Assembly (NCBI GenBank): GCA_002753275.1
Contig: PEAA01000006.1
Location: 1-64,000, forward strand
DNA from: Zetaproteobacteria bacterium
GTDB taxonomy: Bacteria > Pseudomonadota > Zetaproteobacteria > Mariprofundales > Mariprofundaceae
DNA: 64,000 bases
Direction: 5' to 3'
Below, piece after piece: positions 7,036 to 23,707 of the stretch (position 1 is the stretch's first letter; each line of letters opens with the position of its first letter). The translations under genes and the position numbers were made by a program. The notes beneath the pieces were generated by a model. That model was not told the DNA's origin and searched no databases. It saw nothing but the letters and a program-made list of their open reading frames with translations.

Positions 7036-9696
7036 TCATGATGATTTCACACCAAAACCAATCCATGGCCACCAAAAGTTGATGGTTACAACAAATAAAG
7101 CAAAAGCGCTCAACATCAAGACAATACCAAAGCGCATCATATCTTTAAGCTGCACATAGCCTGTGCCAAAGACCATCGCATTGGCAGGCGTCCCCATCGG
7201 CAACATAAAGGCAAAACCTGAGACAATACCAATCACCAAAGCCATCGTAATCGGATCAATCCCTGCGATCGTTCCCATCGGGATACCAATCGGCAACATA
7301 ATCGCAACGGCTGCCGCATTACTAATCGATTCCGTCAATAGCATGGTGAGCAAACCAATCAATGCAAGCAGTGCAACGCCGACAATCGCCTCGGGTAAAA
7401 ATGAGTGCGCCACCCACTCCGCTGCACCCGTTTTCTCAAGCGATTTCGCCACCGCAATTGCGCCGCCATACATCAACACCACGCCCCAATCGATATGCGA
7501 TTGAATCTCTTTCCACCCGACAATACGCAAGGCAAACATCGCCACCACAGCAATCAACGCGATACTCGCCAAGCCAAAGGATTCGGCAAAACCGATCCAT
7601 GCCACCATCGTTGCCAACATCAACAGCGCCATGCTCTTGGCACGAATACCCATCAAACCCAATTTCAACCGCCGTTCATCAATACGATGCATCGCCCCTT
7701 GCATATCAATACTGTCATGCGGAACGGAACGCCACAACAGAACTGCAGCCACAGCCAGCACACCCAAAACAATCGGAAAAGCAGCCAAAGTCCACTCAAT
7801 AAATGAGAAGCTCTGCCCCGTCATCTCATCCACAATCGCCAAGGCCAGTGGCCCCCGTGCACCACCCAGAAGTGTCATCACACCACCAATAATTGCACCC
7901 CAAGCCATCGCCAAAAAGATCGCCATCGCATAACGGTTGCCAGGCTTAAGTCCCAAGCCATGGACCACGCTCCACACAATCGGCAATAAGACAGCCGCTA
8001 CCGCATGCTCTGGCATAAAACAAGCCATCATCGCAGGAAGAAAGAGCATGCTCATCAACAACATTCTGGGGGTATTACCAAACCGATCAAAAACAGCCAA
8101 CGCCAAATGCTCCGACAACCCCGATTTCATGATGCCTGCCGCCAAGATGAAGGCTCCCAAAATAAAGAAGACCGCTTTGTTACCAAACAGGGCATACACA
8201 TCCCCCGCCGACATCGCCCCGACAATGGGCAGCAGCGCCATTCCAAACAGCGAGGTCACCGATAGCGGCAACAGTTGTGTCACCCACAACAGTAAGCAGA
8301 GTCCAAAAACGACCAAAGCACGCCAGCCTGCATCCGTCAAACCTTGCGGCGGGGTGATCTGCAACAGAGCCAATGACACAATCGCCAACAGCGCTAAAGC
8401 CATAAACGGCAGGCTCTGCCGAATCAATAGCGACAATGCCCCCCGACTTGTGCGCTGCGCAGCCTCGCCATCATGGGCTTGGTGATGGTCAAATCGATCA
8501 TGATGCAAAATATGTCGGCGCAAACCATCAAACCACGCCTCAACCTTTCGCCCCATTGATGAGGTTGCAAAGCGTTGTTGCAGCGTCGGTTCAACCCCAT
8601 CAAGCACACGGCTCTCCATGGGGGTCAATACACGCCCCATGTCACGCAAACGGTGGGTGGGCAGCCCCGAATCAATCACCAACTCCGATTGTCGCAACAG
8701 AGCCTCTTCAACTTGATCGAGTGTCGGCAACGACTCTCCGCCCAGCCCCGTCCCTGCCAGTGGCCGAAATGGAATCAGTAGCGGAACAATCCCCCCCTCA
8801 ACCATCGCCTTCATTCCCTGCATCGTGGAAGACAACGGCTCCAACCCAACAATCAGATGGCTCACCACCGTACCGGGTCGAAAAACCTTGCGGGCATAAT
8901 GAAGCACTTGCCAAATACGATCTTGACCACCTTGCGCCGCTTTACCTGGGCAAACATTGGCAAAACGGTCTGCATCGGCAATTTCAAGATTGCAGACAAA
9001 GATATCGAGTCCCGAGTCGTAGAGTTCATCAATGATTGATAACCGCGATGGCGCTACCGTCTCAAGGGCAATCTGTTGATGGGGAAGATGCCGGCGAAGC
9101 AGTGCAATCAAGGGAATCAAACGCGACAACCCCACATCATCACCCGGGGCAAAACCATTATAGAGATAAACCGTGTCAATCTCTCGCTCAAGCAGCGCCG
9201 CGCGCACCACCTCAACCAAATCAAGCGGATCATGCATGGGCGGTTCGGCCTCATTCAACATCGAATCATATTGGCAATAGCGACATGCTGAATCGGGCTT
9301 GGCAAAGAAACCACACCCCATAGTTGGGTAGAGCATCAATAGCCGATCATGCAGCGATGAGATATTGCCCATCCGCGCACCACTGCGACTCTTTTTACGA
9401 TAAAACTTGGGGGTTTCAACCAGCGTCACCCGCTCAATTTCACCGGCACACTCAAGGTAAAAACCTTCGGCATCAAAGCGAAGATGATAGGTACTACGCT
9501 CGGTATAGGCTTGACCTACCGGCACCGTACAGAGATGGCCACTGGGAAGACGAATATCAATGACCGATTCCGTCGCATTGGCTTGCGCAATCCAACGCCA
9601 CGACTCAGGGAGACCATCTGGGAGCGCAACCCCGCGACTGACCAACGAAAGTTTGGTACGCCCCGGGTTCACAAAGGGGTGGAGATCAGTGGTCAT
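7036..9696 (-). CDS. Radical SAM domain fused to SLC13/DASS-family anion permease
   Basis: A single 886-residue product joins two unrelated modules. Residues about 1-395 resemble a radical SAM enzyme, with candidate cluster cysteines C128, C138 and C141 in MGCGFFAKPDSACRYCQYD, a CX9CX2C spacing instead of CX3CX2C. A His/Asp-rich linker follows (HHDRFDHHQAHD, about 400-415). Residues about 430-880 form a polytopic membrane domain of the divalent anion:sodium symporter type, with LTESISNAAAVAIMLPIG as a substrate/sodium-loop motif and MPEHAVAAVLLPI in the other half. No stop or frameshift separates the modules. Set between sulfite reductase and cysH, the permease half probably imports sulfate; what the radical SAM half does is unknown. 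Confidence 0.85.
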   Translation of the reverse strand: MTTDLHPFVNPGRTKLSLVSRGVALPDGLPESWRWIAQANATESVIDIRLPSGHLCTVPVGQAYTERSTYHLRFDAEGFYLECAGEIERVTLVETPKFYRKKSRSGARMGNISSLHDRLLMLYPTMGCGFFAKPDSACRYCQYDSMLNEAEPPMHDPLDLVEVVRAALLEREIDTVYLYNGFAPGDDVGLSRLIPLIALLRRHLPHQQIALETVAPSRLSIIDELYDSGLDIFVCNLEIADADRFANVCPGKAAQGGQDRIWQVLHYARKVFRPGTVVSHLIVGLEPLSSTMQGMKAMVEGGIVPLLIPFRPLAGTGLGGESLPTLDQVEEALLRQSELVIDSGLPTHRLRDMGRVLTPMESRVLDGVEPTLQQRFATSSMGRKVEAWFDGLRRHILHHDRFDHHQAHDGEAAQRTSRGALSLLIRQSLPFMALALLAIVSLALLQITPPQGLTDAGWRALVVFGLCLLLWVTQLLPLSVTSLFGMALLPIVGAMSAGDVYALFGNKAVFFILGAFILAAGIMKSGLSEHLALAVFDRFGNTPRMLLMSMLFLPAMMACFMPEHAVAAVLLPIVWSVVHGLGLKPGNRYAMAIFLAMAWGAIIGGVMTLLGGARGPLALAIVDEMTGQSFSFIEWTLAAFPIVLGVLAVAAVLLWRSVPHDSIDMQGAMHRIDERRLKLGLMGIRAKSMALLMLATMVAWIGFAESFGLASIALIAVVAMFALRIVGWKEIQSHIDWGVVLMYGGAIAVAKSLEKTGAAEWVAHSFLPEAIVGVALLALIGLLTMLLTESISNAAAVAIMLPIGIPMGTIAGIDPITMALVIGIVSGFAFMLPMGTPANAMVFGTGYVQLKDMMRFGIVLMLSAFALFVVTINFWWPWIGFGVKSS

Positions 9697-9705
9697 AAAA
9701 CAGAG

Positions 9706-12063
9706 TTATGCGCACTTCTCCACCAAAATCTTCCACTGGTTCTCCGAAATTTTCTCCTGAGCCAACACCTTCTGTCCCTGCTCTTCCAACGAGAGCGGCA
9801 CATTTTTAATCGGCGCACCATCATCGAGAATCACCTGCAATTGACTGCCAACGGACATCGTGGAGAGCTTAATTTTTGTCTTCACAAAATTCATCGGGCA
9901 AGCCACGCCACTCAAATCGAGCACCACAGCCGTCTCGACTTCAGGCGTCGTCATTGCAATGGAAGCTGGGGCTTGTTCAACTTCAACTGTCGCAGCAACA
10001 TATTCAGGCACCGCAGCAAAACGCTTCTCCGCCAGTGCCAACCATGTTGATTGTGCCTCTTTGAACTTCAACACACCTGCCGCAGGCTCCGCCAAATCAA
10101 TGCCCATCATTGCCGACTGAACAGCCTGAAAACCCTGAATCACCAGAGCATCTCCCATCGCATGCCCCATCAACATGCCCAACACCTCGGCATCATTGTC
10201 AGGCGCTTCGCCATATCCCACCAGGAATGCCCGCGCGGTCGAAGTCATTGAACGGCGCAGTGCCGTCAACGCTTCCGACCAGAACATCGCATCGATGTGG
10301 GCTCTGGCGATCAGCAACTCATACTCAGCTTCAGAGATTAACGCATCGGACATGCTCAACACAGCCCCCGCACACTCACCCTTTTTGTTGCCTTTGGTGT
10401 TAAACGCTTCGTTCTCACTCCAATCGTAGATCAACCCTTCAACTTCACCTTCATCCGCTTTAAAGGGGGCTAAAATGGTTGAAATTTCATCTTTACCCAC
10501 GCGTGTTACCCAAGCGTGCATCGTCTCCGCATCACTGAACCGTTGCGACTTATAGGCTTGCAATACTGCGATACCCGCTTCCGGAGCCGATTTTGCTGGC
10601 ACAGGATCCGTTGCATAAGCAAACGCTTGCCCCGCCACGCCCGAGCCACCCAAATGAAGTTGATAGTGCGGCACAGCCTGCCCCGCCACTTTCTTCGCCA
10701 TGCCATGAAAACCCAAATCAGCAATATGGTGACGACCGCAAGAGTGCTGGCACCCTGAAGCTTTAACTGTGAGTCCCGCCAAGGTCGGGTCCGCTTTTAA
10801 ATCGATCATCAACGGCTGCATCGCCGCAGCCAAACCACGGCTTGAGGTAATCCCCAATCGACAAGTTTCAGTGCCTGGGCAGGCGACAATATCCGAGATG
10901 CCGCGTGCATAAGAGGTTTGCAAATCGGCATGCGCAAGCATTTCAAGCACCACTTCAACCTTATCTTCATCGACCCCGGCAATCACCATCCCCTGTTCGG
11001 TCGTGACACGAAGATCTTTGCTGCCACCCAAGCGGGCTGCTTGCGCCACCGCACGACACTGCAAGGGGGTTAAGTCCCCACGGAACAGGTTAATCAAAAT
11101 AGCCCGTTGGCCATCGTGCTGCACCACCACACCAGAATCATCATAGGGTGCTCCCGTGGTCGTTGGCGCACGCCACTTCGCACCCAACGCCTCGGGTTGA
11201 TGTGTTCCGTCAATCACCGCGCGCTGTTTACGATACTCTTCAATAAAACCTTCAGCACCAAGTGTTTGCATCACATACTTCATGCGCGCCCGTGCTCGCC
11301 GTTTACGATCAGAGAACTTGAAGTGAATACGCATCAACGCCTCACCGACCAGTAAAATATCTGCTTCAGGCACAAATGATTCCAACAAGATCGCAGGGAT
11401 CGGTTGCGATGAAAGACCGCCAGCAGCCCAGACCTCAAAACCCACCGCACCATTTTCTGTTTTGGCAATAAAGCCAATATCATGCATGCCACTCATGCCA
11501 CAATCGGTTGCACATGCAGAGAAGGTCACCTTAAATTTTCGTGGAAATTGCTGCGCCAGAGGATGGCGTAAAAAAAACTCCGTAAAGCGTTGGGCATGTT
11601 GATTAACATCGACAAGTTCTGACGGACAACGCCCAGACAAAAAGCAAGAGGTCACATTGCGCACCGTGTTGCCACACGCTTCACGCGTAGTGAGCCCGAC
11701 CGCATCCAGACGGCGCAGAAAAGGCACCACATCATTCAAAGCGACAAAATTGGCTTGAATATCTTGCCGTGTCGTCACATGGGCAAACTTATGTGGCGGT
11801 GTCGTCAAAGTACCATCAGTCGGCATCTGCCCCGCATAGGCTTCAACACAGTCTCCAATCACATCCAACTGATCGGGCGTAAGCAAACCTCCGGGAAGCT
11901 TGACCCGCAGCATCTGCACACCCTCTTGCCGTTGACCATAAACGCCCATCTGCAAACGAAACGGGGTAAAGCGCTCTTCCGCCATACGCCCATCACAAAA
12001 GGCTTGATAGCCAGCTTCAAATTCATCCACATCTGCGGTTTGTGAAAAGGTAAACTCTCTCAT
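9706..12063 (-). CDS. Siroheme [4Fe-4S] sulfite reductase with C-terminal TusA domain
   Basis: Residues about 1-540 are a ferredoxin-type nitrite/sulfite reductase: the N-terminal half contains ACGNTVRNVTSC, and the siroheme/cluster cysteines are in CPGTETC (CX5C) and CQHSC (CX3C). About 130 helical residues of uncertain identity follow. Residues about 715-785 are a TusA domain with ACPMNFVKTKI. The total of 785 residues is long for the family because of this tail. No CysJ flavoprotein gene is nearby, so a ferredoxin donor is likely. Given the operon, sulfite is the expected substrate rather than nitrite. The fused TusA could take sulfide as persulfide directly from the active site. It is the first gene of the sulfate operon. 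Confidence 0.9.
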   Translation of the reverse strand: MREFTFSQTADVDEFEAGYQAFCDGRMAEERFTPFRLQMGVYGQRQEGVQMLRVKLPGGLLTPDQLDVIGDCVEAYAGQMPTDGTLTTPPHKFAHVTTRQDIQANFVALNDVVPFLRRLDAVGLTTREACGNTVRNVTSCFLSGRCPSELVDVNQHAQRFTEFFLRHPLAQQFPRKFKVTFSACATDCGMSGMHDIGFIAKTENGAVGFEVWAAGGLSSQPIPAILLESFVPEADILLVGEALMRIHFKFSDRKRRARARMKYVMQTLGAEGFIEEYRKQRAVIDGTHQPEALGAKWRAPTTTGAPYDDSGVVVQHDGQRAILINLFRGDLTPLQCRAVAQAARLGGSKDLRVTTEQGMVIAGVDEDKVEVVLEMLAHADLQTSYARGISDIVACPGTETCRLGITSSRGLAAAMQPLMIDLKADPTLAGLTVKASGCQHSCGRHHIADLGFHGMAKKVAGQAVPHYQLHLGGSGVAGQAFAYATDPVPAKSAPEAGIAVLQAYKSQRFSDAETMHAWVTRVGKDEISTILAPFKADEGEVEGLIYDWSENEAFNTKGNKKGECAGAVLSMSDALISEAEYELLIARAHIDAMFWSEALTALRRSMTSTARAFLVGYGEAPDNDAEVLGMLMGHAMGDALVIQGFQAVQSAMMGIDLAEPAAGVLKFKEAQSTWLALAEKRFAAVPEYVAATVEVEQAPASIAMTTPEVETAVVLDLSGVACPMNFVKTKIKLSTMSVGSQLQVILDDGAPIKNVPLSLEEQGQKVLAQEKISENQWKILVEKCA

Positions 12064-12110
12064 CTTGATGCTCCATTGTGTGGCTCTCTACTAAAAAGTA
12101 CGCCCATACA

Positions 12111-12124
12111 TTTAATACATTAAA
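12111..12124. promoter_or_regulatory. Palindrome upstream of the sulfate assimilation operon
   Basis: TTTAATACATTAAA has perfect 6-nt arms around a 2-nt centre, about 50 nt upstream of the sulfite reductase start in a 120-nt intergenic region that must hold the operon promoter. It may be an operator. I could not recognise a convincing -35/-10 pair or a known regulator site. Confidence 0.3.
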
Positions 12125-12183
12125 TCGTGAAATCTAAGAGACCCATCGCCCCTAGAAGTACAACTCTGAGGTTCAATTAAGCC

Positions 12184-13008
12184 TTAATGTTGTCCAAATT
12201 TGATTTCACACGCCTGTTCATAAGTGATCAAATCGGTAATTGTAGGTTGATCTCCACACAACGGACAACCGGGATCACGACGAAGTTTCAACTTCTTCCA
12301 CTCCATACGCAGGGCATCAAAAGTCATTAAACGGCCCGACAACGATTCACCAACACCCAGCAACTCTTTCACCGCTTCAACGGCTTGAATGGTCCCCACC
12401 GCTCCGGCAAGCGCACCCAAGATGCCCGCTTCTGAACATGAAGGAACAAGCCCTGCTGGCGGCGGCTCAGGGTAGAGACAGCGGTAACATGGGCCATCTT
12501 TATGCACATGCGGTTTATAGGTAGCGACCTGCCCCTCAAAACGGAACATCGCGCCTGAAATCAACGGTTTCTTCTCAAAATAACAGGCATCGTTGACCAA
12601 AAAACGGGTGGGGAAATTATCACAACCATCGATAATCAGATCATATTCACGAATGATCTCTCGAATATTCTCTTCATTAACAAAGTAGTTGTAGGTATTC
12701 ACCTGCACATCGGGATTCAATGCCTGCATCGTCTGTTTGGCAGACTCAACCTTTGGCATTCCGACGCGTGATTGATTATGAATAATTTGGCGCTGCAAAT
12801 TGGATAGATCGACAACATCAGCATCGGCAATGCCAATGGTTCCAACACCTGCGGCTGCCAAGTAATACGCCACCGGAGAGCCAAGCCCACCAGCACCGAT
12901 CATAAAGACTTTCGATTCAAGCAATTTGCTTTGACCTTCGGCCCCCACTTCGGGCAAAATAATGTGACGCGAATAGCGTTCGATCTGTTCTTCTGTAAAA
13001 TCAATCAT
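12184..13008 (-). CDS. moeB: MoeB/ThiF-family E1-like adenylyltransferase
   Basis: The 274-residue protein has the nucleotide motif GAGGLGSPVAYYLAAAG (about residues 37-53), the catalytic-loop context YDLIIDGCDNFPTR, and zinc cysteines in CYRCLYPEPP and CPLCGDQP. Members adenylate the C-terminal Gly-Gly of small ubiquitin-like sulfur carriers so that sulfur can be loaded as a thiocarboxylate. It is the last gene of the operon that also encodes such a carrier and cysteine synthase. It therefore more likely activates that carrier than MoaD for molybdopterin. There is no C-terminal rhodanese domain. The 79-nt gap to cysK is larger than other gaps in this operon. Confidence 0.9.
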   Translation of the reverse strand: MIDFTEEQIERYSRHIILPEVGAEGQSKLLESKVFMIGAGGLGSPVAYYLAAAGVGTIGIADADVVDLSNLQRQIIHNQSRVGMPKVESAKQTMQALNPDVQVNTYNYFVNEENIREIIREYDLIIDGCDNFPTRFLVNDACYFEKKPLISGAMFRFEGQVATYKPHVHKDGPCYRCLYPEPPPAGLVPSCSEAGILGALAGAVGTIQAVEAVKELLGVGESLSGRLMTFDALRMEWKKLKLRRDPGCPLCGDQPTITDLITYEQACEIKFGQH

Positions 13009-13087
13009 TGGAGAATCCTTTTAACATCCACTTTCATAAGAAATTAGTGATAAAACTGCGCTGATACGATGATATCAAGCGATGCGT

Positions 13088-14020
13088 TTACGCTTCAACA
13101 CCTTTAAATAAATCCGTCGACATATACCGCTCCGCCATCGATGGCACCATCACCACGATTCGTTTACCCGCCATCTCTTCACGCGCAGCGATACGCAGCG
13201 CAGCAGCAACCGCTGCACCTGATGAAATTCCACCAGGAATGCCCTCTTCATTGGCAAGGCGACGCGCCGTTGCAAAGGCGTCGTCATTACTGATGCACTC
13301 CACACCATCCAAAATCGCCACATTCAAATTGCCAGGAATAAATCCAGCACCAATCCCTTGAATCTTATGCGGGCTTGGCTTGCCCCCTGAAATCACCGGA
13401 GAATCGGCAGGCTCAACGGCAAAGGCTTTAAAATCGGGGTTGCGTGATTTGAGAACTTCCGCGATCCCTGTAATCGTTCCGCCCGTACCCACACCCGCGA
13501 CGATGACATCCACATTCCCATCACAATCAGACCAAATTTCTTCGGCGGTGGTTTCACGATGAACCTGAGGGTTGGAAGGATTTTCAAACTGCTGTGGCAT
13601 ATAAGCGCCATCAATGGTGGCAACAATCTCTGTCGCTTTGGCAATCGCCCCTTTCATGCCAAGTTCTGCGGGCGTTAATACCAGCTCGGCACCCAACAGT
13701 TGCAACAATTTCCGCCGCTCCATGCTCATCGACTCTGGCATCGTCAATAGACAACGGTACCCCTTAGAACGCGCAACAAACGCCAACGCAATGCCCGTAT
13801 TCCCTGAAGTGGGCTCAACAATCATCCCCCCAGGTTTTAACAATCCATCACGCTCAGCCGCTTCAACCATTGCCCGACCAATGCGGTCTTTGACAGAGTT
13901 GAGCGGATTAAAAAATTCCAACTTCAACAATATCTCTGCATGCAGCCCGTGCGACATCCGCTGCATCCGTACCAGAGGAGTATGGCCTATCGTATCTACC
14001 GGACTGTTATAAATTGGCAT
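13088..14020 (-). CDS. cysK: Cysteine synthase (PLP beta-family, CysK/CysM type)
   Basis: The 310-residue PLP enzyme has the Schiff-base lysine in [11 protein letters not shown] (about residue 44), the substrate loop [13 protein letters not shown], and the phosphate-binding [10 protein letters not shown]. It adds sulfide or a protein thiocarboxylate to O-acetylserine or O-phosphoserine. Its place between the NIL/sulfur-carrier genes and moeB resembles the mec-cysO-cysM arrangement, so a thiocarboxylate donor is plausible. The ATG is preceded by GAGGGG and lies 5 nt after the NIL gene stop. Confidence 0.93.
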
Positions 14021-14025
14021 ACTGT

Positions 14026-14268
14026 TTACCCCTCAACCACATTTTGTTCGATCGGCTCAACATGCACACCCTCTTGGGCATCCAGCCACTGAATCGCCTT
14101 TTCAACCACATCTTGGTCGCCCTCAATCTCAAGACCCACCAATCCCATTCCCTCACGCACCTCAGCGGTACGGATATTGGTCATCACCTCAAATTCTTTG
14201 GCCAAGCGCCAAATAATAGGCTCTGTGACAGTTTGTTGATTAAAGTTTAAATATACGCGTATTTTCAT
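14026..14268 (-). CDS. Small NIL-domain protein
   Basis: From ATG 14268 (GGGAG six bases upstream) the product is 80 residues: [36 protein letters not shown]. This is a stand-alone NIL domain, a ferredoxin-like fold found at the C-terminus of methionine transporter ATPases, where it binds methionine. Stand-alone copies recur beside MoaD-like carriers and threonine synthases. In this SAM-riboswitch operon it could be a ligand sensor or an accessory of the sulfur carrier. An in-frame start at 14292 exists but has a poorer ribosome site. Confidence 0.85.
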
Positions 14269-14312
14269 CGTGACTCCCAAGCCATAGGGCAAACATTGCT
14301 GTCAAAAAGATA

Positions 14313-14591
14313 TTACAAACCACCCGCGATTGCTGGAACGATTGAAACCTCGTCCCCTGCATTCAATGCCGTTTCACGCCCACTTAAAAAACGCACATCT
14401 TCATCGTTCACATAAACATTCACAAAACGGCGAATTTCGCCGGCATCATCACACAAACGCTCTTTAAGCCCTGGATGCGCTGCTTCCAGATTATCAATCA
14501 AAGCACCAATGGTTGCCCCTTCAATCGTCACTTCATCAGCACCGCCGGTTAATTTACGCAACGGCGTAGGAATACGAACTTGTACACTCAT
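14313..14591 (-). CDS. MoaD/ThiS-type ubiquitin-like sulfur carrier (CysO/HcyS-like)
   Basis: The 92-residue beta-grasp protein begins [17 protein letters not shown] and ends [13 protein letters not shown]. Family members are adenylated and thiocarboxylated at a C-terminal Gly-Gly; here one Leu follows the GG. In the Wolinella HcyS and related systems an extra C-terminal residue must be removed by a JAMM-type protease before activation, so a processing step is expected. No such protease gene is in view. The neighbouring moeB and cysK supply the E1 and a plausible acceptor enzyme. The strong GAGGAGAG site fixes the ATG. Confidence 0.88.
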
Positions 14592-14618
14592 CTCTCTCTC
14601 CTCGACTTGAATTTAAAA

Positions 14619-15872
14619 TCAATCTTTATTTAATACGCCATCAGCCGCAGCCAACAGATCAAACTCTTTCAGACTAGCCGCAATGATGCGCGGTTTTTCA
14701 ATGGCATCGACAACCGCCTCTTGTGTTTTCAAGCCATTGCCAGTGATACACAAAACAATCGACTCATCCCGTGGCAACTTGCCTGATTCGATCATCTTCA
14801 TCGCACAACCCAAGGTCACACCACCAGCCGTCTCGGCAAAAATACCTTCCGTCTCGGCAAGAAGTTTCATCGCAGCAATCACTTCAGCATCAGAGATATC
14901 TTCTGCAAAACCGCCTGAATCACGAATGACACGGTTGGCATAAAATCCATCAGCGGGATTACCAATCGCCAAGGACTTGGCAATGGTATCGGCATGAACA
15001 GGGTGAATCATATCGGTACCATCTTTGACCGATTTAGAGATCGGTGAACAGCCTGTTGCCTGTGCGCCATACACCGCTGTACCAGCATCTTCAATCAAAC
15101 CAAGCTTGATAAACTCTTTAATCGATTTATCGACTTTAGTACAGAGTGAACCCGAAGCCATCGGTACCACGATATGTTTGGGTGCTTTCCAACCGAGTTG
15201 CTCCATCACTTCATACCCCAACGATTTGGAGCCTTCCGCATAAAAAGGACGCACATTCACATTGACAAAGGCCCAGCCATATTTACCGGCCACTTCGGAG
15301 CAAAGACGATTCACATCATCATATTTCCCTTGAATGCCAATAATTTTCGTACCAAAAATACCAGCACCAAGAACCTTGCCCTGCTCAAGATCGTGGGGAA
15401 TAAAGACATAAGATTCTAAGCCTGCCGCAGCTGCATTGGCCGCCACAGAACCTGCAAGATTGCCCGTTGAAGCACATGCAACGGTGGTAAAACCAAACTC
15501 AACTGCTTTCGAGAGTGCCACAGAAACGACGCGATCTTTGAATGAGAGGGTCGGGTAACATACCGAATCATTTTTAATATAAAGTTCGGAGACGCCTAAA
15601 ACCTTCTCAAGATTTTTGGCACGCACAAGCGGCGTAAATCCATTTTGCGCACCTACGCTTGGCTCGCCATCAATAGGCAGAAGCTCTTTGTAACGCCACA
15701 TGTTTTGCCGACGCGATTCGATCAATTCACGGGTAAACTTACCTTGCAGCTTGTCATAATCATAAACAACTTCCAGCGGCCCAAAACAAAACTCACACAC
15801 ATGCGTTGGTTCAATCGCATACTCCTGACCACACTCACGGCACTTTAATGCTCGAACAATCGTTTCACTCAT
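14619..15872 (-). CDS. thrC: Threonine synthase-like PLP enzyme with N-terminal zinc ribbon
   Basis: The protein from ATG 15872 (AAGGGG upstream) is 417 residues. It has an N-terminal zinc ribbon (CRECG at 11-15, CEFC at 26-29), the PLP lysine in LSFKDRVVS, and the family motif ACASTGNLAGSVAA. Annotated members convert O-phosphohomoserine to threonine. As first gene behind a SAM-I riboswitch and followed by a thiocarboxylate system, it may instead sit at the homoserine branch between threonine and methionine, or make a sulfur-containing product. That is inference. A TTG start 21 nt upstream is less likely. Confidence 0.88.
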   Translation of the reverse strand: MSETIVRALKCRECGQEYAIEPTHVCEFCFGPLEVVYDYDKLQGKFTRELIESRRQNMWRYKELLPIDGEPSVGAQNGFTPLVRAKNLEKVLGVSELYIKNDSVCYPTLSFKDRVVSVALSKAVEFGFTTVACASTGNLAGSVAANAAAAGLESYVFIPHDLEQGKVLGAGIFGTKIIGIQGKYDDVNRLCSEVAGKYGWAFVNVNVRPFYAEGSKSLGYEVMEQLGWKAPKHIVVPMASGSLCTKVDKSIKEFIKLGLIEDAGTAVYGAQATGCSPISKSVKDGTDMIHPVHADTIAKSLAIGNPADGFYANRVIRDSGGFAEDISDAEVIAAMKLLAETEGIFAETAGGVTLGCAMKMIESGKLPRDESIVLCITGNGLKTQEAVVDAIEKPRIIAASLKEFDLLAAADGVLNKD

Positions 15873-15929
15873 GGTAATCAACCCCTTTTTCAATCCATAA
15901 ACAGATATGGATCCGCATCAATTTCAGGC

Positions 15930-16196: not shown

Positions 16197-17978
16197 TCAA
16201 ATATGATAATGGTCTGGCTCAGTTAAACATTGACGCAATACCCGCTTCAAATCCTCCTGTTTGTAGGGTTTGGACAAATAGCCATCCACCCGTCCATGCG
16301 AGAAAAACTGTTGCTGCAGCTCATTTTCAGCATAACCTGACGATAAAATAACTTTTACATCGGGGTTCATCTGTTTCAGTTTCAAAAAGCACTCATCACC
16401 CGACATAATCGGCATGGTCATATCCAAAATAACCAGATCAATCGTACGACCCTGCTCGCGATAAATATTAACGGCTTCAAGCCCATTGATCGCTTCAACC
16501 GAAGTACAACCCAGCGCCTTTAAGCGCATCGATAACAGTGTCCGAATAGTCAACTCATCATCGACAATCAACACATGCGCTGAGAAGGAATCATTGTTCA
16601 CTTCTACTTTTTTCTCAACGGCTTTCCATGTTCCTTTTGATGCAGGAAAAAGTACCGTAAATTGTGTTCCTTTGCCCAACTCAGTCTGCAAATGCAAAAT
16701 GCCATGGTGTTGATGCACAATACCCAAAACCGCAGACATCCCCAAACCTCGCCCCGTAAATTTGGTTGTAAAAAATGGTTCAAACATTTTTTCCTGCACC
16801 TCAGCTGAGATACCACTACCATTATCTTCAACCGTAAAGGCGATATAACGCCCCTCTGCAATCTCCTTGCGACAACGGGTTCTCGGATCTTTCAAAAAGG
16901 ATTGATCCACATCCATCGCTCGGGTGGAGACCCAGACATCGCCCTCATTCCCCTCCATCGCATCCGAAGCATTCACCACCATATTCAAAACAATTTGCTC
17001 AACCTCAGAAACATCGACCTCAATCGGAGGAAGCGACTTATCCAACAAAAAGTGAACGCGAACCCCCGTTGCCACCGATGAGGAGAGCACACTTTTCATC
17101 TGCGCAATCACCTCGCCTAAACCGACAACAGTCGACGAAAGCAGGCTACTTTCCGAGTAGGCAAGCATCTGCTTACAGAGCCGAGCTGCATGCGATGAAG
17201 CATCCATAATATGCTCCAGATGAACACGAAAGCTCGACCCTTTCTCCAATGATTCCAACATTATTTCAGCATTGCCCATAATAGGGGTTAATAAGTTATT
17301 GAAATCATGCGCAACACCACCCGCCATCAAACCGAGTGATTTTAAATGGCGTTGACGCTCCTGCTCTAACGACTCCTGCATCCGTTCACTGGCCAATCGT
17401 TCGGTAATATCAATGGCAAGCCCCACCAGACCAGAAACAACACCCTGCTCATCATGAATCAACACTTTAACAATATCAAAAATATGCGTTTGACCATCAG
17501 CACACGGTAATGCTTCTTGCACTTGAACACGCCCAGTCGATGCAAAACAGGCTTCATCAGAAGTTTGACATACCATTGCCTGCTCCGATGGAAAAAGACT
17601 CAAATAATTATCTACAGAAAGAAAACGCTCCTCAGAAATCCCCATCATTTGTGCAAACCATCGATTCACAAACTGCACACGAAAGTGGGTATCGATCATC
17701 CAGATACCAATCGGCGCATGGCTTAAAATCGTCTGCATCATCAATCGTTCACTCGATAAGCGCTCGTTGAGATGTTCGAGCTCCTGCGTGCGCTCACGCA
17801 CGCGCCCTTGCAGCAACACATTGGTTTCAAACATTGAAAAAGCATCACCCATCACGCTCATGCTGTTCTCAACCCGCTTCATCAACGCATTGCAGATCTT
17901 TTGTGAACGGGCCAATTCTGCCTCTAATACCACAACGCGTTGCTGATATTCCTCAATGGTTGTCGATGTTGAAGCCAC
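16197..17978 (-). CDS. PAS-domain hybrid histidine kinase with C-terminal receiver
   Basis: The 593-residue protein starts at GTG 17978, four bases after the FIST gene stop. It has an N-terminal coiled coil (about 5-75), a PAS domain (about 80-195), a HisKA region with phospho-acceptor His224 in GGVAHDFNNLLTPI, HATPase motifs NMVVNASDAM and VEDNGSGIS, and a receiver domain with Asp519 in VILDMTMP. No membrane segment is seen, so it is probably cytosolic and takes its signal through PAS or the partner FIST protein. Longer upstream starts overlap the FIST gene and encode unrelated sequence. Confidence 0.92.
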   Translation of the reverse strand: MASTSTTIEEYQQRVVVLEAELARSQKICNALMKRVENSMSVMGDAFSMFETNVLLQGRVRERTQELEHLNERLSSERLMMQTILSHAPIGIWMIDTHFRVQFVNRWFAQMMGISEERFLSVDNYLSLFPSEQAMVCQTSDEACFASTGRVQVQEALPCADGQTHIFDIVKVLIHDEQGVVSGLVGLAIDITERLASERMQESLEQERQRHLKSLGLMAGGVAHDFNNLLTPIMGNAEIMLESLEKGSSFRVHLEHIMDASSHAARLCKQMLAYSESSLLSSTVVGLGEVIAQMKSVLSSSVATGVRVHFLLDKSLPPIEVDVSEVEQIVLNMVVNASDAMEGNEGDVWVSTRAMDVDQSFLKDPRTRCRKEIAEGRYIAFTVEDNGSGISAEVQEKMFEPFFTTKFTGRGLGMSAVLGIVHQHHGILHLQTELGKGTQFTVLFPASKGTWKAVEKKVEVNNDSFSAHVLIVDDELTIRTLLSMRLKALGCTSVEAINGLEAVNIYREQGRTIDLVILDMTMPIMSGDECFLKLKQMNPDVKVILSSGYAENELQQQFFSHGRVDGYLSKPYKQEDLKRVLRQCLTEPDHYHI

Positions 17979-17982
17979 CCCT

Positions 17983-19110
17983 TTATTCTCCAATAGCCAC
18001 AGCAGTAAAGGTTTGATTGATATGCAAGGCATTGAGTTGCTCACCATAGGTGTGAAACCCCAACACATGGTAAGCGTTCATCAACATGCCCATCTCATCA
18101 CTCAAGCCACGCTCCTCAACCTCCAAACGACGCAAAATACAGTCACAACCAATCATCAATTTCAATGTATCAAATTGATCAGCGACCCGCTGCAGATCGT
18201 TACGAAGTTCCGTCAACATCTCTTGACTCTGTGCCAAAGTCAGCACCAAACCTTCATCAATGGCACAAAAAAAGGTTAAACTGCCATCACTGTTACATTG
18301 CTGAATCGAGCGCACAAACCATGAACCACCCACATTGAGCATCAATGGATAGCCCGAGAAAATCTGCGGCGTTAAGTTTTTAGGGTCAAAGCCAAGCATG
18401 TTGGCGTACTCTTCACCTGCAGGTAATCCATTGATTTCAAAAACCTGACGCTGGGAAGTATCCGCACCGGTAATCACCAATTTTTTATCGGAGGGTTCAA
18501 AGTGTTGTGTCTTAAATATATGAAAACGATGTTGACACTCAACCAATGCAAACACCCCTGCATTACTCACAAATTCACCATCGGCATACACAAAGGTCTT
18601 TTCAAACTGCAAATCATCCCCAGCGGATCCACCCACCATTTGAACACCGCCCAAATGGTAATTTAACAAAGCAACCGCACGCTCCTCCGCCATCGACAAT
18701 CCATCGATAAAAACCAATCCAAACATCGCGTGTTCATCAAATTCCTTACTAAACGCCATCTGATGATGCAACACTTCTACGAAACGCTCCGCCTTGGAAA
18801 CATCGAATTGATTAATATCGGGCAACAAGTGCACTTGTGCCGCAACTTTATCCGAGGCAATACTTGCTGCGGTACAACTCTGTTTTGAGAAACCATCCGG
18901 AGTAATCTCGCCTGAAGTAGTGCAACCAATCACAGGACAATTAAAAGCGGTCTTTATCGCAGCTCCCATCGTGATTAAATCATAGGTTGAAGCGCAAAAA
19001 AAGATCACCAACTTCATATTATCTTGCAAGATTTGATCACGAATTTCAGCAACAGCCGCCTGGCTATCTTGCAAATAAGAGACACCTCGTTTTACCGTCA
19101 AAGCACCCAT
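17983..19110 (-). CDS. FIST-domain sensor protein
   Basis: The 375-residue protein has the FIST N domain (GCTTSGEITPDGF, MFGLVFIDGLSMAEE, GGSAGDDLQFEKTFVY) and a FIST C domain (about 220-350, ending GFHTYGEQ). FIST modules are predicted small-ligand sensors, thought to bind amino acids or similar molecules, and often occur beside kinases and cyclic-di-GMP enzymes. That is the setting here: the gene lies 9 nt after a GGDEF-EAL gene and 4 nt before a hybrid kinase. A GGGGGG site precedes its ATG. Confidence 0.92.
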   Translation of the reverse strand: MGALTVKRGVSYLQDSQAAVAEIRDQILQDNMKLVIFFCASTYDLITMGAAIKTAFNCPVIGCTTSGEITPDGFSKQSCTAASIASDKVAAQVHLLPDINQFDVSKAERFVEVLHHQMAFSKEFDEHAMFGLVFIDGLSMAEERAVALLNYHLGGVQMVGGSAGDDLQFEKTFVYADGEFVSNAGVFALVECQHRFHIFKTQHFEPSDKKLVITGADTSQRQVFEINGLPAGEEYANMLGFDPKNLTPQIFSGYPLMLNVGGSWFVRSIQQCNSDGSLTFFCAIDEGLVLTLAQSQEMLTELRNDLQRVADQFDTLKLMIGCDCILRRLEVEERGLSDEMGMLMNAYHVLGFHTYGEQLNALHINQTFTAVAIGE

Positions 19111-19119
19111 GATCCCCCC

Positions 19120-21570
19120 CTACTCCATTATTTTTTTACATTCATGCATATTGTATCCAAAATAAAACTGCTCAAAGATATCGGCAGAAACTGCTTTTGA
19201 GTATAAGAATCCTTGTGCATAATCACAACCCGCCTGCAAGAGCATATCGCGCTGCATTTCGGTCTCAACACCTTCTGCAATCACCTTAAAGCCCAACTTA
19301 TGCGCCATGACGATAATTGCTTCACATAACACCAAATCGCTGGAATCTGAACCAAGGCCTCGCACAAATGATTGATCAATTTTGAGAAAATCGATATCAA
19401 ACTTTTTCAAATAGGAGAGCGATGAGTAACCTGTACCAAAATCATCAATGGCCACTTGAATGCCCGCATCACGGAACTTGAGCAACTTTTCATTCACACT
19501 CTGCTCTGCATGCAGCAACAACCCTTCAGTAATTTCAAGTTTAATCGCTTCACCCGCAAGCCCTTTACGCTCCAAATAATCTGACCAAGAAATACTGTCA
19601 TGATCATTGCGAATCTGCACAGGGGATTGATTAACGCTGATTTGGAAGTTTTCATGGATTAATTCACGCCAACGGGTGACTTGCGACACCGATTGCTCAA
19701 AAACCCAATTCCCAATGGGAATAATCAACCCTGTCTCTTCAGCCAAGCCAATAAAATCAATGGGAGGAATAATGCCATGAATCGGGTGATGCCAACGAAT
19801 CAACGCTTCCGCTTTATAAATTTCACCTGTCGCCAAATTGACAATCGGTTGATAAAACACTTCAAACTGCTTTTCGACCAGAGCGATGCGCAAATCACTG
19901 ATAATATGCTTGCGTTTTTGCGCCACCCGTTGCAGATCGGATGTAAAATAACGAAAGCGTTTCCGCCCCATACTTTTGGCCGCATACATTGCTTGATCGG
20001 CATTTTTAAACAATATATTCAAATCTTCACTATCATCAGGGTAAATCGCAATACCAATACTCGCTGAAATAAATATCTGCTCATCACCCAGGCTAAACGG
20101 CATTGATAGCGCTTCAATCACACGCTCAGCCGTTCGATCGATCTCTTTCATGGCATCAACATCTGAGATCACAACCGTAAATTCATCCCCCCCAAGGCGA
20201 GCGACCATATCATATTCATAAACACAGCTACGAATACGATGTGCGGCCTCGACAAGCAAGAGATCGCCTACTGCATGGCCAAGTGTATCGTTCACCTCTT
20301 TAAAACCATCAAGATCAATCAACAACAGTGCCATTTTCAATTGGTTGCCCATCACCTGCAATGCGGTGAGCTGTAAATGTTCATAAAACATTCTACGGTT
20401 AGGAAGATGGGTTAATTCATCAAAGTTTGCCTGCTTCCAAACCAGTTTCTCAATATTTTTTCGTTCAGTGATATCGGTAAAAAGACCCACAACCCGAAAA
20501 AGCTCGCCTTGACTGTCATTGACGGTATTCATCGTTAACAATTTCACGAAGGCTTCGCCATCTTTACGCAGCGCATGCGCTTCACCATGCCAGTGATTTT
20601 CAGTTTTTAATGTATGCCATATTTCATCATAAAATGACGCATCATTGAGATTGGATGAGAAAAAGTTTGGTTTCTTCCCAACAACATCCGCAAGGGAAAA
20701 GCCTGTCATCATCTCAAAGGCACTGTTCACAGCCATGATTTGAAATTCTGAATTCATCACCAAAATGGCTTCACTGCTATGGTGGTAAACCATAGCTGCC
20801 AATTGCAACTCATCAAGGGCATGACGGTACTGGGTTAAATCTGAGATAAATACAAAACAGCAACCGTCTGAAATGGCTGAATATGTGGTGGTGATTCGAA
20901 CTGGAAAGCGCTGACCATCACGATGACGATGGGTCGCCTCGAAGCTAAAATGTCCGCCAGATTCAACAATTTCAGCAATTCGCTTTTTCACCAATATATC
21001 ATCATGATCATCATCAATTTGGGAAATATGCATCTGCAATAACTGCGCATGGGTATAGCCTGACATGCGCACATAGGCATCATTGGTCTCTAAAATATTA
21101 CCTTGCAGGTCAATCATCCAGAAACCATCAACAGAGGTTTCGATCGCCGTACGATAGAGTTTATCTTTTTCCTCGATCAGCGTTTCCATCTGTTTTTGTT
21201 CCGTGATATCACGCACAATGCTTAAATAATATTTAGCGGCATCTATTTCAATGGTTCGTGCGTTAATTTCGACAGGCATAATGGAGCCATCTTTGCGCAC
21301 ATGGGCAGTTTCAAAAATTGCTGAAGCCTTGCTATCCACTTGCTCCAACCGTGATTGCACTCGCGCTGCAAATTCCGGTGGGTCAATCTCTGAAACATGC
21401 AGCCCTAAAAGCGCATCACGGGAATAACCTAGGCGTTGATCGAAGAGAGCATTGGTGCGAATAATATAGCCCTTGGCATCCAGAATAAGGACACCATCAG
21501 CAATGACTGAAAACAGGTTGATAGATATCGCATCGAGATGTGCCTGCACAACATGATTGTTGCTTAACAT
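19120..21570 (-). CDS. PAS-PAS-PAS-GGDEF-EAL cyclic-di-GMP protein
   Basis: The 816-residue protein has three PAS domains (about 10-130, 135-255 and 258-380). A diguanylate cyclase domain follows with an intact GGDEF motif in ARLGGDEFTVV, then an EAL phosphodiesterase domain with EALIRWHHP and DDFGTGYSSL. Both catalytic signatures look complete, so it could make or degrade c-di-GMP. The usual RxxD inhibitory site before GGDEF reads YEYD and is absent. No transmembrane helix is seen. It lies 64 nt downstream of the MamK-like gene in the same direction. Confidence 0.94.
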   Translation of the reverse strand: MLSNNHVVQAHLDAISINLFSVIADGVLILDAKGYIIRTNALFDQRLGYSRDALLGLHVSEIDPPEFAARVQSRLEQVDSKASAIFETAHVRKDGSIMPVEINARTIEIDAAKYYLSIVRDITEQKQMETLIEEKDKLYRTAIETSVDGFWMIDLQGNILETNDAYVRMSGYTHAQLLQMHISQIDDDHDDILVKKRIAEIVESGGHFSFEATHRHRDGQRFPVRITTTYSAISDGCCFVFISDLTQYRHALDELQLAAMVYHHSSEAILVMNSEFQIMAVNSAFEMMTGFSLADVVGKKPNFFSSNLNDASFYDEIWHTLKTENHWHGEAHALRKDGEAFVKLLTMNTVNDSQGELFRVVGLFTDITERKNIEKLVWKQANFDELTHLPNRRMFYEHLQLTALQVMGNQLKMALLLIDLDGFKEVNDTLGHAVGDLLLVEAAHRIRSCVYEYDMVARLGGDEFTVVISDVDAMKEIDRTAERVIEALSMPFSLGDEQIFISASIGIAIYPDDSEDLNILFKNADQAMYAAKSMGRKRFRYFTSDLQRVAQKRKHIISDLRIALVEKQFEVFYQPIVNLATGEIYKAEALIRWHHPIHGIIPPIDFIGLAEETGLIIPIGNWVFEQSVSQVTRWRELIHENFQISVNQSPVQIRNDHDSISWSDYLERKGLAGEAIKLEITEGLLLHAEQSVNEKLLKFRDAGIQVAIDDFGTGYSSLSYLKKFDIDFLKIDQSFVRGLGSDSSDLVLCEAIIVMAHKLGFKVIAEGVETEMQRDMLLQAGCDYAQGFLYSKAVSADIFEQFYFGYNMHECKKIME

Positions 21571-21634
21571 CTTTCCCCCTGTTCAAAGCTAAAGAAGCGC
21601 ATGCGTTCAATGGCAGCGTACTGAAATCATTTTA

Positions 21635-22642
21635 TTAAAGCTGCTCCCAATACGCATCCGGCATCTCCATCGACATGCTCAAGGCCCCGGTACTACCACA
21701 ATGCTCCGCATCTTGCACACATGTTGCATTGCCACCACCGTAGGCTTCCAAGCTATCTTCGATGGCTTTATCAATGCCTTTCAACCGTGAGCCACCACCG
21801 GCAACAATAATATTGTTACGCAGACGCTCTTGAAAATCTGGATCAAAGGTTCCGACCAACTCCTGCACCGCTGCCGTAATGGGATTGACCAACTCCAAAC
21901 AACTCGCCTTCAAGACATCACTGATATCATACTCGCCAATAATCCCCTTTTCGGTCAACTTGACCATGATCGGCAATGACACATCGGACACATATCCATG
22001 CTTCTCTTTAATCCGTTTTACAATCTGTTGGCTCAACTGAACCTTGGGAAATTTTTCTAAGATTTTCTTGGTCAACACCTCATCCAAAAAGTTTCCTGCT
22101 GTTGTTAAAGTCAACTGATCTTCATGCTCAGGCATCGAACCATGCATACGACACAGATCGGTTGTGCCCGCACCAATATCAACGATCAAACACTCATCAA
22201 AACGATCTACAGAATAGGCAACGGCAAAAGGCTCACTAACAATAATTAGACGATCAATAAAGGATTGACTCAACGCAATAATCGCCACTTTATTATTCTT
22301 ATTGGCTTGCGCAGGCACACCAATGGCTGCGTGCACACGGTCACCCGTTTTAAACTCTGGCAACGCCTCCGCAATCAAAGCCTTTAGCAAAAGGGCTGTC
22401 GCATCTAAGGATTGTTGATCTTCACACAACACCCCATCGGCAAGGGGCCAAATCAAATTCAACCCCAAGCGATTTTCAAGCGCCTCGTCACCCAATAAAA
22501 AATCACGGCCAAAACGCTTGTGTGACACCATATCTTTGGGAAAGCCAACACAACTACCAATGGTGAGCCGTTTTCCCGTTGAGGTTGCAATGGAACTACG
22601 ACTGGTTCCTAAATCAATACCAACATAAAAAGTTTGTGACAT
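21635..22642 (-). CDS. MamK-like bacterial actin
   Basis: The 335-residue actin-family ATPase carries phosphate-1 GIDLGTS (about 8-14), phosphate-2 DIGAGTTDLCRMHG, and the adenosine motif AGGGSRLKGID. Several stretches resemble the magnetosome actin MamK rather than MreB or ParM, as recalled: VGFPKDM, LIWPLADGVL, VSEPFAVAYSVD, EDQLTLTTAGNFLDEVL and the C-terminal DAYWEQL. MamK forms filaments that align magnetosomes. No other magnetosome genes are visible here, so filament formation is likely but the cargo is unknown. The partner may be the small membrane protein encoded 31 nt upstream. Confidence 0.82.
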   Translation of the reverse strand: MSQTFYVGIDLGTSRSSIATSTGKRLTIGSCVGFPKDMVSHKRFGRDFLLGDEALENRLGLNLIWPLADGVLCEDQQSLDATALLLKALIAEALPEFKTGDRVHAAIGVPAQANKNNKVAIIALSQSFIDRLIIVSEPFAVAYSVDRFDECLIVDIGAGTTDLCRMHGSMPEHEDQLTLTTAGNFLDEVLTKKILEKFPKVQLSQQIVKRIKEKHGYVSDVSLPIMVKLTEKGIIGEYDISDVLKASCLELVNPITAAVQELVGTFDPDFQERLRNNIIVAGGGSRLKGIDKAIEDSLEAYGGGNATCVQDAEHCGSTGALSMSMEMPDAYWEQL

Positions 22643-22673
22643 TCCCTATTTCCTATTCTGATTTACAAAAGCG

Positions 22674-23006
22674 TTATGCATTACGCAATTTCAGATTGTC
22701 ATCCATGATGCCTTTTAACATCGCCATTTTACGCTCATTACTGGTCGATTTAATCTCTGAATGGAAAGGTGATGACGCGACAGGTGCTGCAATAACCTTC
22801 ACAGGTTTTGCATATTCCAACTCAAGAATTTTATCATAGAGATCGGTCACTTGCATGGAAACATCGAGATGGTTTTCCGCCATCGTTTTTTTCAACTGCA
22901 TCAATTGCCACACGGCAAAACCACCCAATGCCAACAATCCTGCACCAGGAAAGAGCATCGCACCGATTTTAACCGAGCCAACCTTGATAACGCCATAATC
23001 AATCAT
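22674..23006 (-). CDS. Unrecognised small membrane protein upstream of the MamK-like actin
   Basis: From ATG 23006 (AGGGG five bases upstream) the product is 110 residues, or two longer from a GTG. I recognise no family. It has one hydrophobic helix near the N-terminus (about residues 15-33, MLFPGAGLLALGGFAVWQL). A predicted amphipathic or coiled-coil stretch follows (QLKKTMAENHLDVSMQV, DLYDKILELEY), then a Pro/Ala/Ser linker and a charged C-terminal helix. Such a layout would suit a membrane anchor or adaptor for the filament protein. It is the first gene of the five-gene cluster. Confidence 0.75.
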   Translation of the reverse strand: MIDYGVIKVGSVKIGAMLFPGAGLLALGGFAVWQLMQLKKTMAENHLDVSMQVTDLYDKILELEYAKPVKVIAAPVASSPFHSEIKSTSNERKMAMLKGIMDDNLKLRNA

Positions 23007-23034
23007 ACTCACCCCTGATTATTCCCCATAAAAA

Positions 23035-23049: not shown

Positions 23050-23143
23050 GAAAACACTCAAAGAATTCAAGAACTATTTAACCTAACATAGTGAACCCTC
23101 TTTTTCACTGCGTAGAGAGCGGCACTAAAAACATTTCGCCAGT

Positions 23144-23707
23144 TTAGCGACAACAATTTCTCACAGGTGCAAAACTGAACCGATGGATGGGCGTTGGACC
23201 ATGCATACGCAACGCCTCAAGATGAACCTTTGTGCCATACCCTTTATGTTTTTCAAAACCATACTCAGGGTATTGCCTCGCATACGACTGCATCATTCGA
23301 TCACGCATCACTTTGGCGACAATAGAAGCCGCAGCAATGCACTGCACCGAATCATCGCCACCCACCACGCACTCAGCCGAGATCGACAAATCCGGAATTC
23401 GATTGCCATCCACCATTACATGCTCAGGTGCAATCCGAAGCCTCTCCACTGCCCGTCGCATGGCAACCATCGTCGCATGCAAAATATTAAGATGATCAAT
23501 CTCTTGCACACTCGCTGCGGCGACAGCATAAGCGATCGCATTGTGACGAATATGATGATACAAACGCAGTCGTTTTTTTTCAGAGAGCTTTTTTGAATCA
23601 CGGTAGTGGCCGAGCATTGGGTCATCATCCCTTAAAATCACAGCGGCACAGATGACAGGGCCGGCAAGCGGCCCCCGCCCAACTTCATCGACACCCGCCA
23701 ATAACAC
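23144..23707 (-). CDS. rnhB: Ribonuclease HII
   Basis: It removes RNA from RNA-DNA hybrids, including single ribonucleotides. The 187-residue protein starts [17 protein letters not shown] with the catalytic Asp-Glu pair, continues with [10 protein letters not shown], and ends with the family C-terminal [13 protein letters not shown]. The start codon is GTG, 10 nt after the pheT stop, with GAGGATAGGG upstream. It is the last gene of the thrS-infC-rpmI-rplT-pheST block. Confidence 0.95.

Follow-up and report, generated by a model that had tools for sequence, protein, structure and literature searches.

A Bbp-type actin and its conserved, putatively membrane-anchored partner gene in a Zetaproteobacteria genome

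Is an actin gene that lies among sensor genes in a member of the Zetaproteobacteria a MamK, and which of its neighbours belong with it? The question is raised by five genes in the window, as we call the whole 64,000-nucleotide stretch of DNA analysed. A preliminary description of this DNA had reported five co-directional open reading frames with gaps of 31, 64, 9 and 4 nt. All five are present on the minus strand, the gaps are exact, and Pfam and NCBIfam matches far above chance bear out the domains it named (Table 1). An alternative call of the first open reading frame gives 112 aa (22674-23012). Purine-rich ribosome-binding sites precede all four of the starts checked among the five genes. 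In a consensus scan, the sites of which were no commoner than in shuffled sequences, the sole terminator-like stem near the start of the cluster was the one after rnhB, and none was found in the gaps between the five genes. Elsewhere in the window (9706-15893) there is an ordinary-looking, co-directional set of sulfur-assimilation genes, judged by eye (sulfite/nitrite reductase-like, MoeB/ThiF-like, cysteine synthase-like, ThiS/MoaD-like and threonine synthase-like).

Table 1. Positions of the cluster genes and of their parts in the window, with the basis of each assignment.
Feature	Position	Strand	Basis and remarks
Terminator-like stem just past rnhB, setting rnhB apart from the cluster	23136..23150	-	Consensus scan
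Small bitopic membrane protein, 110 aa (conserved Bbp partner)	22674..23006	-	Without Pfam or NCBIfam match
Predicted transmembrane helix of the partner, approx. aa 14-36	22899..22967	-	Hydropathy; topology inferred
Conserved C-terminal tail of the partner, MLKGIMDDNLKLRNA	22677..22721	-	Invariant N/L/R; AlphaFold2 helix
Actin-like protein Bbp, 335 aa	21635..22642	-	Clade, identity, AU test
PAS3-GGDEF-EAL protein, 816 aa, GGDEF and EAL motifs intact	19120..21570	-	Pfam and motif check
FIST/FIST_C protein, NosP-like nitric-oxide sensor, 375 aa	17983..19110	-	NCBIfam NosP NF041558 and Pfam
PAS-HisKA-HATPase-REC hybrid kinase after nosP	16197..17978	-	Pfam; GTG start at 17978

The actin had been described as MamK-like. 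It is indeed an additional actin and belongs to the MamK superfamily, with MamK 5ljw as its closest solved structure (E 1e-75), but it is not MamK itself. On the NCBIfam MamK model it scored 375 bits, below the curated cut-off of 400; the true MamK of the same genome scored 427 bits. It is 63-70% identical to proteins from relatives of Beggiatoa and Thiomargarita, with 65-67% for those in Thiomargarita, Beggiatoa and Parabeggiatoa, 57-60% identical to those of other Gammaproteobacteria, and then about 39-47% identical to those of Planctomycetota, with 37-42% identity to true MamKs. A tree built from 86 actins placed the window protein in a 10-row clade with Thiomargarita and Beggiatoa sequences (support 100), and the MamKs of the window genome (G000) and of a second genome of the class, G062, in a separate 14-row MamK clade (support 100). 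The AU test rejected a topology with the window and G062 actins inside the MamK clade (p = 0.0003). Nor does the actin group with MreB, an outcome that the preliminary description had set against its own reading: it scored 62.5 bits on the MreB model, compared with 484 for the MreB that the genome encodes in addition (contig C53), and its best NCBIfam MreB model gave 58 bits against a cut-off of 293. Mad28 is reported to form a distinct and far more divergent clade (PMC10653835); as the window actin is 38% identical to MamK, it is, by that published description, unlikely to be a Mad28.

The clade that does hold the window protein is that of Bbp ('big bacteria protein'), which Geelhoed et al. 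(2023) found in Ca. Electrothrix gigas, Thiomargarita, Beggiatoa and others, and to which they assigned Zetaproteobacteria genes formerly named MamK (PMC10580974). On these sequence comparisons the window actin is a Bbp and not a magnetosomal MamK. The actin itself is already described and is not new, and the reassignment corrects what is likely a recurring misannotation, Bbp labelled as MamK, in the class of the window genome. The neighbourhoods differ: in Ca. Electrothrix gigas the actin is clustered with a hypothetical and a Kelch protein, and in the window with NosP, kinase and GGDEF-EAL genes. A literature search returned no later work on Bbp.

The absence of a mam gene core, as had been claimed, holds for the window only, because a magnetosome cluster lies on another contig of the same genome (C2), with mamB, mamQ, mamZ, feoB, mamT, mamA, mamM, true mamK, and a mamE that carries CxxCH motifs. 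As C2 carries these genes, the source organism is probably a magnetotactic member of the Zetaproteobacteria. Among the 78 genomes of the class, MamQ was found in just two, the window genome and G062; the latter has a magnetosome cluster syntenic with C2, and its bbp and partner gene lie about 330 nt upstream of that cluster, on the same strand.

With a magnetosome cluster and its own MamK in the genome, bbp adjoining such a cluster in G062, and a second MamK known outside the magnetosome island of Magnetospirillum AMB-1 (PMC2818848), the window gene might be read as a duplicated magnetosome MamK that, like the AMB-1 MamK-like protein, aids MamK in aligning the magnetosome chain. We consider this unlikely. 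Identity between the window actin and the MamKs of G000 and G062 is 37-39%, compared with 54.5% between AMB-1 MamK-like and MamK, and membership of the MamK clade was rejected (p = 0.0003). A recent duplication of MamK as the origin of the gene is likewise rejected by the tree and the AU test. In addition, Bbp is present in relatives of Beggiatoa and Thiomargarita and in two genomes of the class, G004 (93% complete) and G006 (81%), in which MamQ and a magnetochrome-bearing MamE were not found; searches for magnetosome-cluster markers found none in G004, G006 or the Beggiatoa relatives. Bbp shares with MamK and MamK-like its superfamily, and 5ljw and 5ljv are its best sequence and fold matches, but it has its own clade and a different partner.

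Three features of the magnetosome loci may be recorded here. The MamO-position gene of C2 consists of two overlapping open reading frames of 390 and 322 aa (L012:16727-18752), where that of G062 is a single one of 639 aa, pointing to a frameshift or split gene in G000. The MamJ-position protein adjoining mamK has a long Glu-Ala repeat (L013:2608-3030). Large Ala/Glu/Arg-rich repeat proteins, probably coiled coils, are encoded near bbp and the magnetosome cluster of G062 (L016:3390-7306).

Do the sensor genes belong with the actin? The FIST protein matched the NosP model NF041558 with 425 bits (E 2e-127), just below the curated cut-off of 450. With FIST and FIST_C domains, this strong match, and a kinase gene 4 nt away, it has the defining features of NosP and is predicted to bind heme and nitric oxide. 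NosP was found in 20 of the class's 78 genomes. Outside the window genome, its neighbour matched a kinase or GGDEF protein in 17 of 19 cases; of the other two neighbours, one had no match and one was cut by a contig end. NosP plus kinase is thus a common nitric-oxide-sensing pair in the class. A circuit of this kind, NosP-NahK-NarR, joins NosP to a kinase and a GGDEF/EAL protein (PMC8846402), and the window resembles it in that the NosP-like protein adjoins a hybrid kinase and a GGDEF-EAL protein. It differs in that the window GGDEF-EAL protein has PAS domains and lacks a receiver domain, the NosP score is just under the cut-off, and the module adjoins an actin module.

Such circuits, together with five co-directional genes, short gaps and the lack of a terminator-like site in those gaps, would fit a single signalling-cytoskeleton system in which nitric oxide (through NosP and the kinase) and c-di-GMP (through the GGDEF-EAL protein) control the assembly or position of Bbp filaments. 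The comparison across genomes makes this unlikely, as the arrangement was seen in one genome only. No actin was found beside NosP in the 19 other genomes of the class. The remaining Bbp and partner loci examined, 260,847 bases in all, contain generic kinases in four cases but no homologue of NosP or of the GGDEF-EAL protein. The genes downstream of Bbp at those loci vary from one to the next. The preliminary description had made co-conservation the test of its own reading, and on these grounds the sensor genes fail it: conservation of the five genes as one system was rejected, their order having been seen in this genome only. As far as tested, the five-gene arrangement therefore appears specific to the window genome, and the sensor genes stand beside Bbp either by local coincidence or as an addition specific to the species. 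Co-regulation of Bbp with them in this genome is possible, because the 64-nt gap contains no terminator; a coupling of nitric oxide and c-di-GMP to Bbp is unproven and would be lineage-specific at best.

The gene upstream of the actin behaves differently. The preliminary description had the actin encoded with a small membrane protein, and this pairing is borne out well beyond the window: a homologue lies directly upstream of Bbp in 25 of the 27 non-redundant Bbp loci with upstream sequence. The 25 comprise those of G000, G062, G006 and G004, six further loci (L021-L026), 14 more from genomes of the order of Beggiatoa (a frame disruption splits one of these), and one from a genome of the Desulfobulbus family. 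The two exceptions both have a partner, about 3 kb off on the same strand in L123 and elsewhere in the genome in L125.

Presence and absence of the two genes follow each other closely. In Beggiatoa's order, a partner profile at E<1e-10 matched 19 of the 20 genomes with Bbp compared to 1 of the 23 without it, and the lone Bbp-bearing genome without a match has its Bbp at a contig edge. In the class of the window genome the profile matched 4 of 4 Bbp-bearing genomes and, at E<1e-4, none of the other 74, where the best match was E 1.8e-4. Because Bbp-adjacent genes went into the profile, its matches where Bbp is present are partly circular, which does not apply to the absences. In one genome (G091) the partner is present and Bbp was not detected. 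Judged from gene order and co-occurrence, the small membrane protein and the actin together form the unit that is conserved across genomes, and probably the functional one. The partner is not described in the main text of the Bbp paper (PMC10580974). We found no published description of a tailed membrane partner of Bbp, and this near-obligate partner appears to be undescribed so far.

Some partner genes have other surroundings. Those of G091 (L152:4852-5364) and G095 (L155:3928-4449) have no adjacent Bbp, and their neighbourhood is common to both. In G084 the partner gene adjoins an AmiC-like gene (L153:8260-8691 and 8843-10039), which echoes the amidase link of another actin clade (below).

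What would such a partner do? Its N-terminal segment is hydrophobic, with a hydropathy peak of about 1.6-2.3 where the N-terminus is complete. Alignment of 23 partners showed a variable linker and a C-terminal tail with invariant N, L and R residues and a consensus of roughly h-K-x-h-h-x-D/E-N-h-x-L-R. Of 80 actin loci, 30 have the tail motif on the gene in the upstream position, compared to 10 of 7231 other ORF C-termini, and the same tail ends the upstream genes of many MamK-superfamily actins of Planctomycetes and Hydrogenedentes. Among magnetosome proteins, whether in the MamJ position or others, no bearer of this tail was found but the partner itself. AlphaFold2 modelled the G006 homologue alone with one long N-terminal helix and with the tail as a helix (pLDDT about 93). 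In a fusion of the G006 partner and Bbp, made by in-frame read-through and read from pLDDT, the tail was again a helix (about 90) and the actin fold was recovered, matching MamK best (5ljv, TM 0.92 by target length). The fusion model does not demonstrate docking, since the partner alone gives an equally confident tail helix.

This anatomy matches that of known actin partners. Arcadin-2 binds the groove of crenactin with nanomolar affinity through a conserved C-terminal helix that follows an unconserved linker, and ParR has a comparable anatomy on ParM (PMC5173319). The Bbp partner shares the conserved C-terminal helix after a variable linker, and differs in that it is predicted to be membrane-anchored and not soluble or DNA-binding; we claim no sequence relation to either. 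On the strength of this match we propose a two-gene unit, which we regard as fairly probable, of Bbp and an inner-membrane protein whose C-terminal tail binds, anchors, nucleates or caps Bbp filaments. In the proposed unit, the partner would be held in the inner membrane by its N-terminal helix, its variable linker would reach into the cytoplasm, and its conserved amphipathic C-terminal helix would bind Bbp, probably by entering the groove between actin subdomains IA and IIA as in the analogous pairs. By anchoring, nucleating or capping filaments at the membrane, it would position cell structures. In this organism Bbp would be a second actin beside the true MamK. Its cargo here may be magnetosomes, because Bbp adjoins the magnetosome cluster in G062, the other magnetotactic genome of the class. 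The genes for NosP, the kinase and the GGDEF-EAL protein would form a nitric-oxide/c-di-GMP module that only this genome has next to Bbp, perhaps on the same transcript.

Bbp has been associated with giant bacteria. Following the proposal of Geelhoed et al. (PMC10580974), and given that Bbps of this clade occur in Thiomargarita, Beggiatoa and Parabeggiatoa, Bbp could instead support large cell size or intracellular transport, with the small protein as a minor accessory. We consider this somewhat unlikely, since the same paper lists normal-sized carriers, and Bbp is present in small genomes of the class of the window genome (1.6-2.6 Mb), for which nothing known suggests giant cells. The near-strict co-occurrence of the partner with Bbp also argues that its role is central rather than minor. 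As part of the two-gene unit proposed above, a predicted membrane protein that almost always accompanies Bbp and ends in a short conserved tail offers a specific and cheap entry point to Bbp function, and could explain how MamK-type filaments attach to membranes outside magnetosomes.

The occurrence of the tail beyond Bbp raises the question of how general the unit is. We entertain, tentatively and as a real possibility, an undescribed and widespread two-gene cytoskeleton in which non-magnetosome MamK-superfamily actins (the Bbp clade and several Planctomycetes and Hydrogenedentes clades) each work with a cognate protein, membrane-anchored in the Bbp clade, that binds them by one conserved C-terminal tail. 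Magnetosomal MamK would then be a specialised branch that has lost or replaced the partner.

A separate clade of MamK-like actins (25 rows, SH-aLRT 92) is encoded directly downstream of a gene resembling AmiC-type cell-wall amidases. It is found in Nitrospirota, Acidobacteriota, Desulfobulbaceae, Myxococcota, Gammaproteobacteria, Bacteroidota and Rhodothermota (loci L055, L057, L059, L061, L063-L065, L067-L069, L071-L073, L075-L078, L080, L085, L086, L089, L091 and L093-L095). A literature search returned no publication on it. Amidase_3 was confirmed by Pfam for L055, L065 and L075, and the other loci were assigned by tail similarity. This gene order suggests that these actins may be tied to wall hydrolysis or division.
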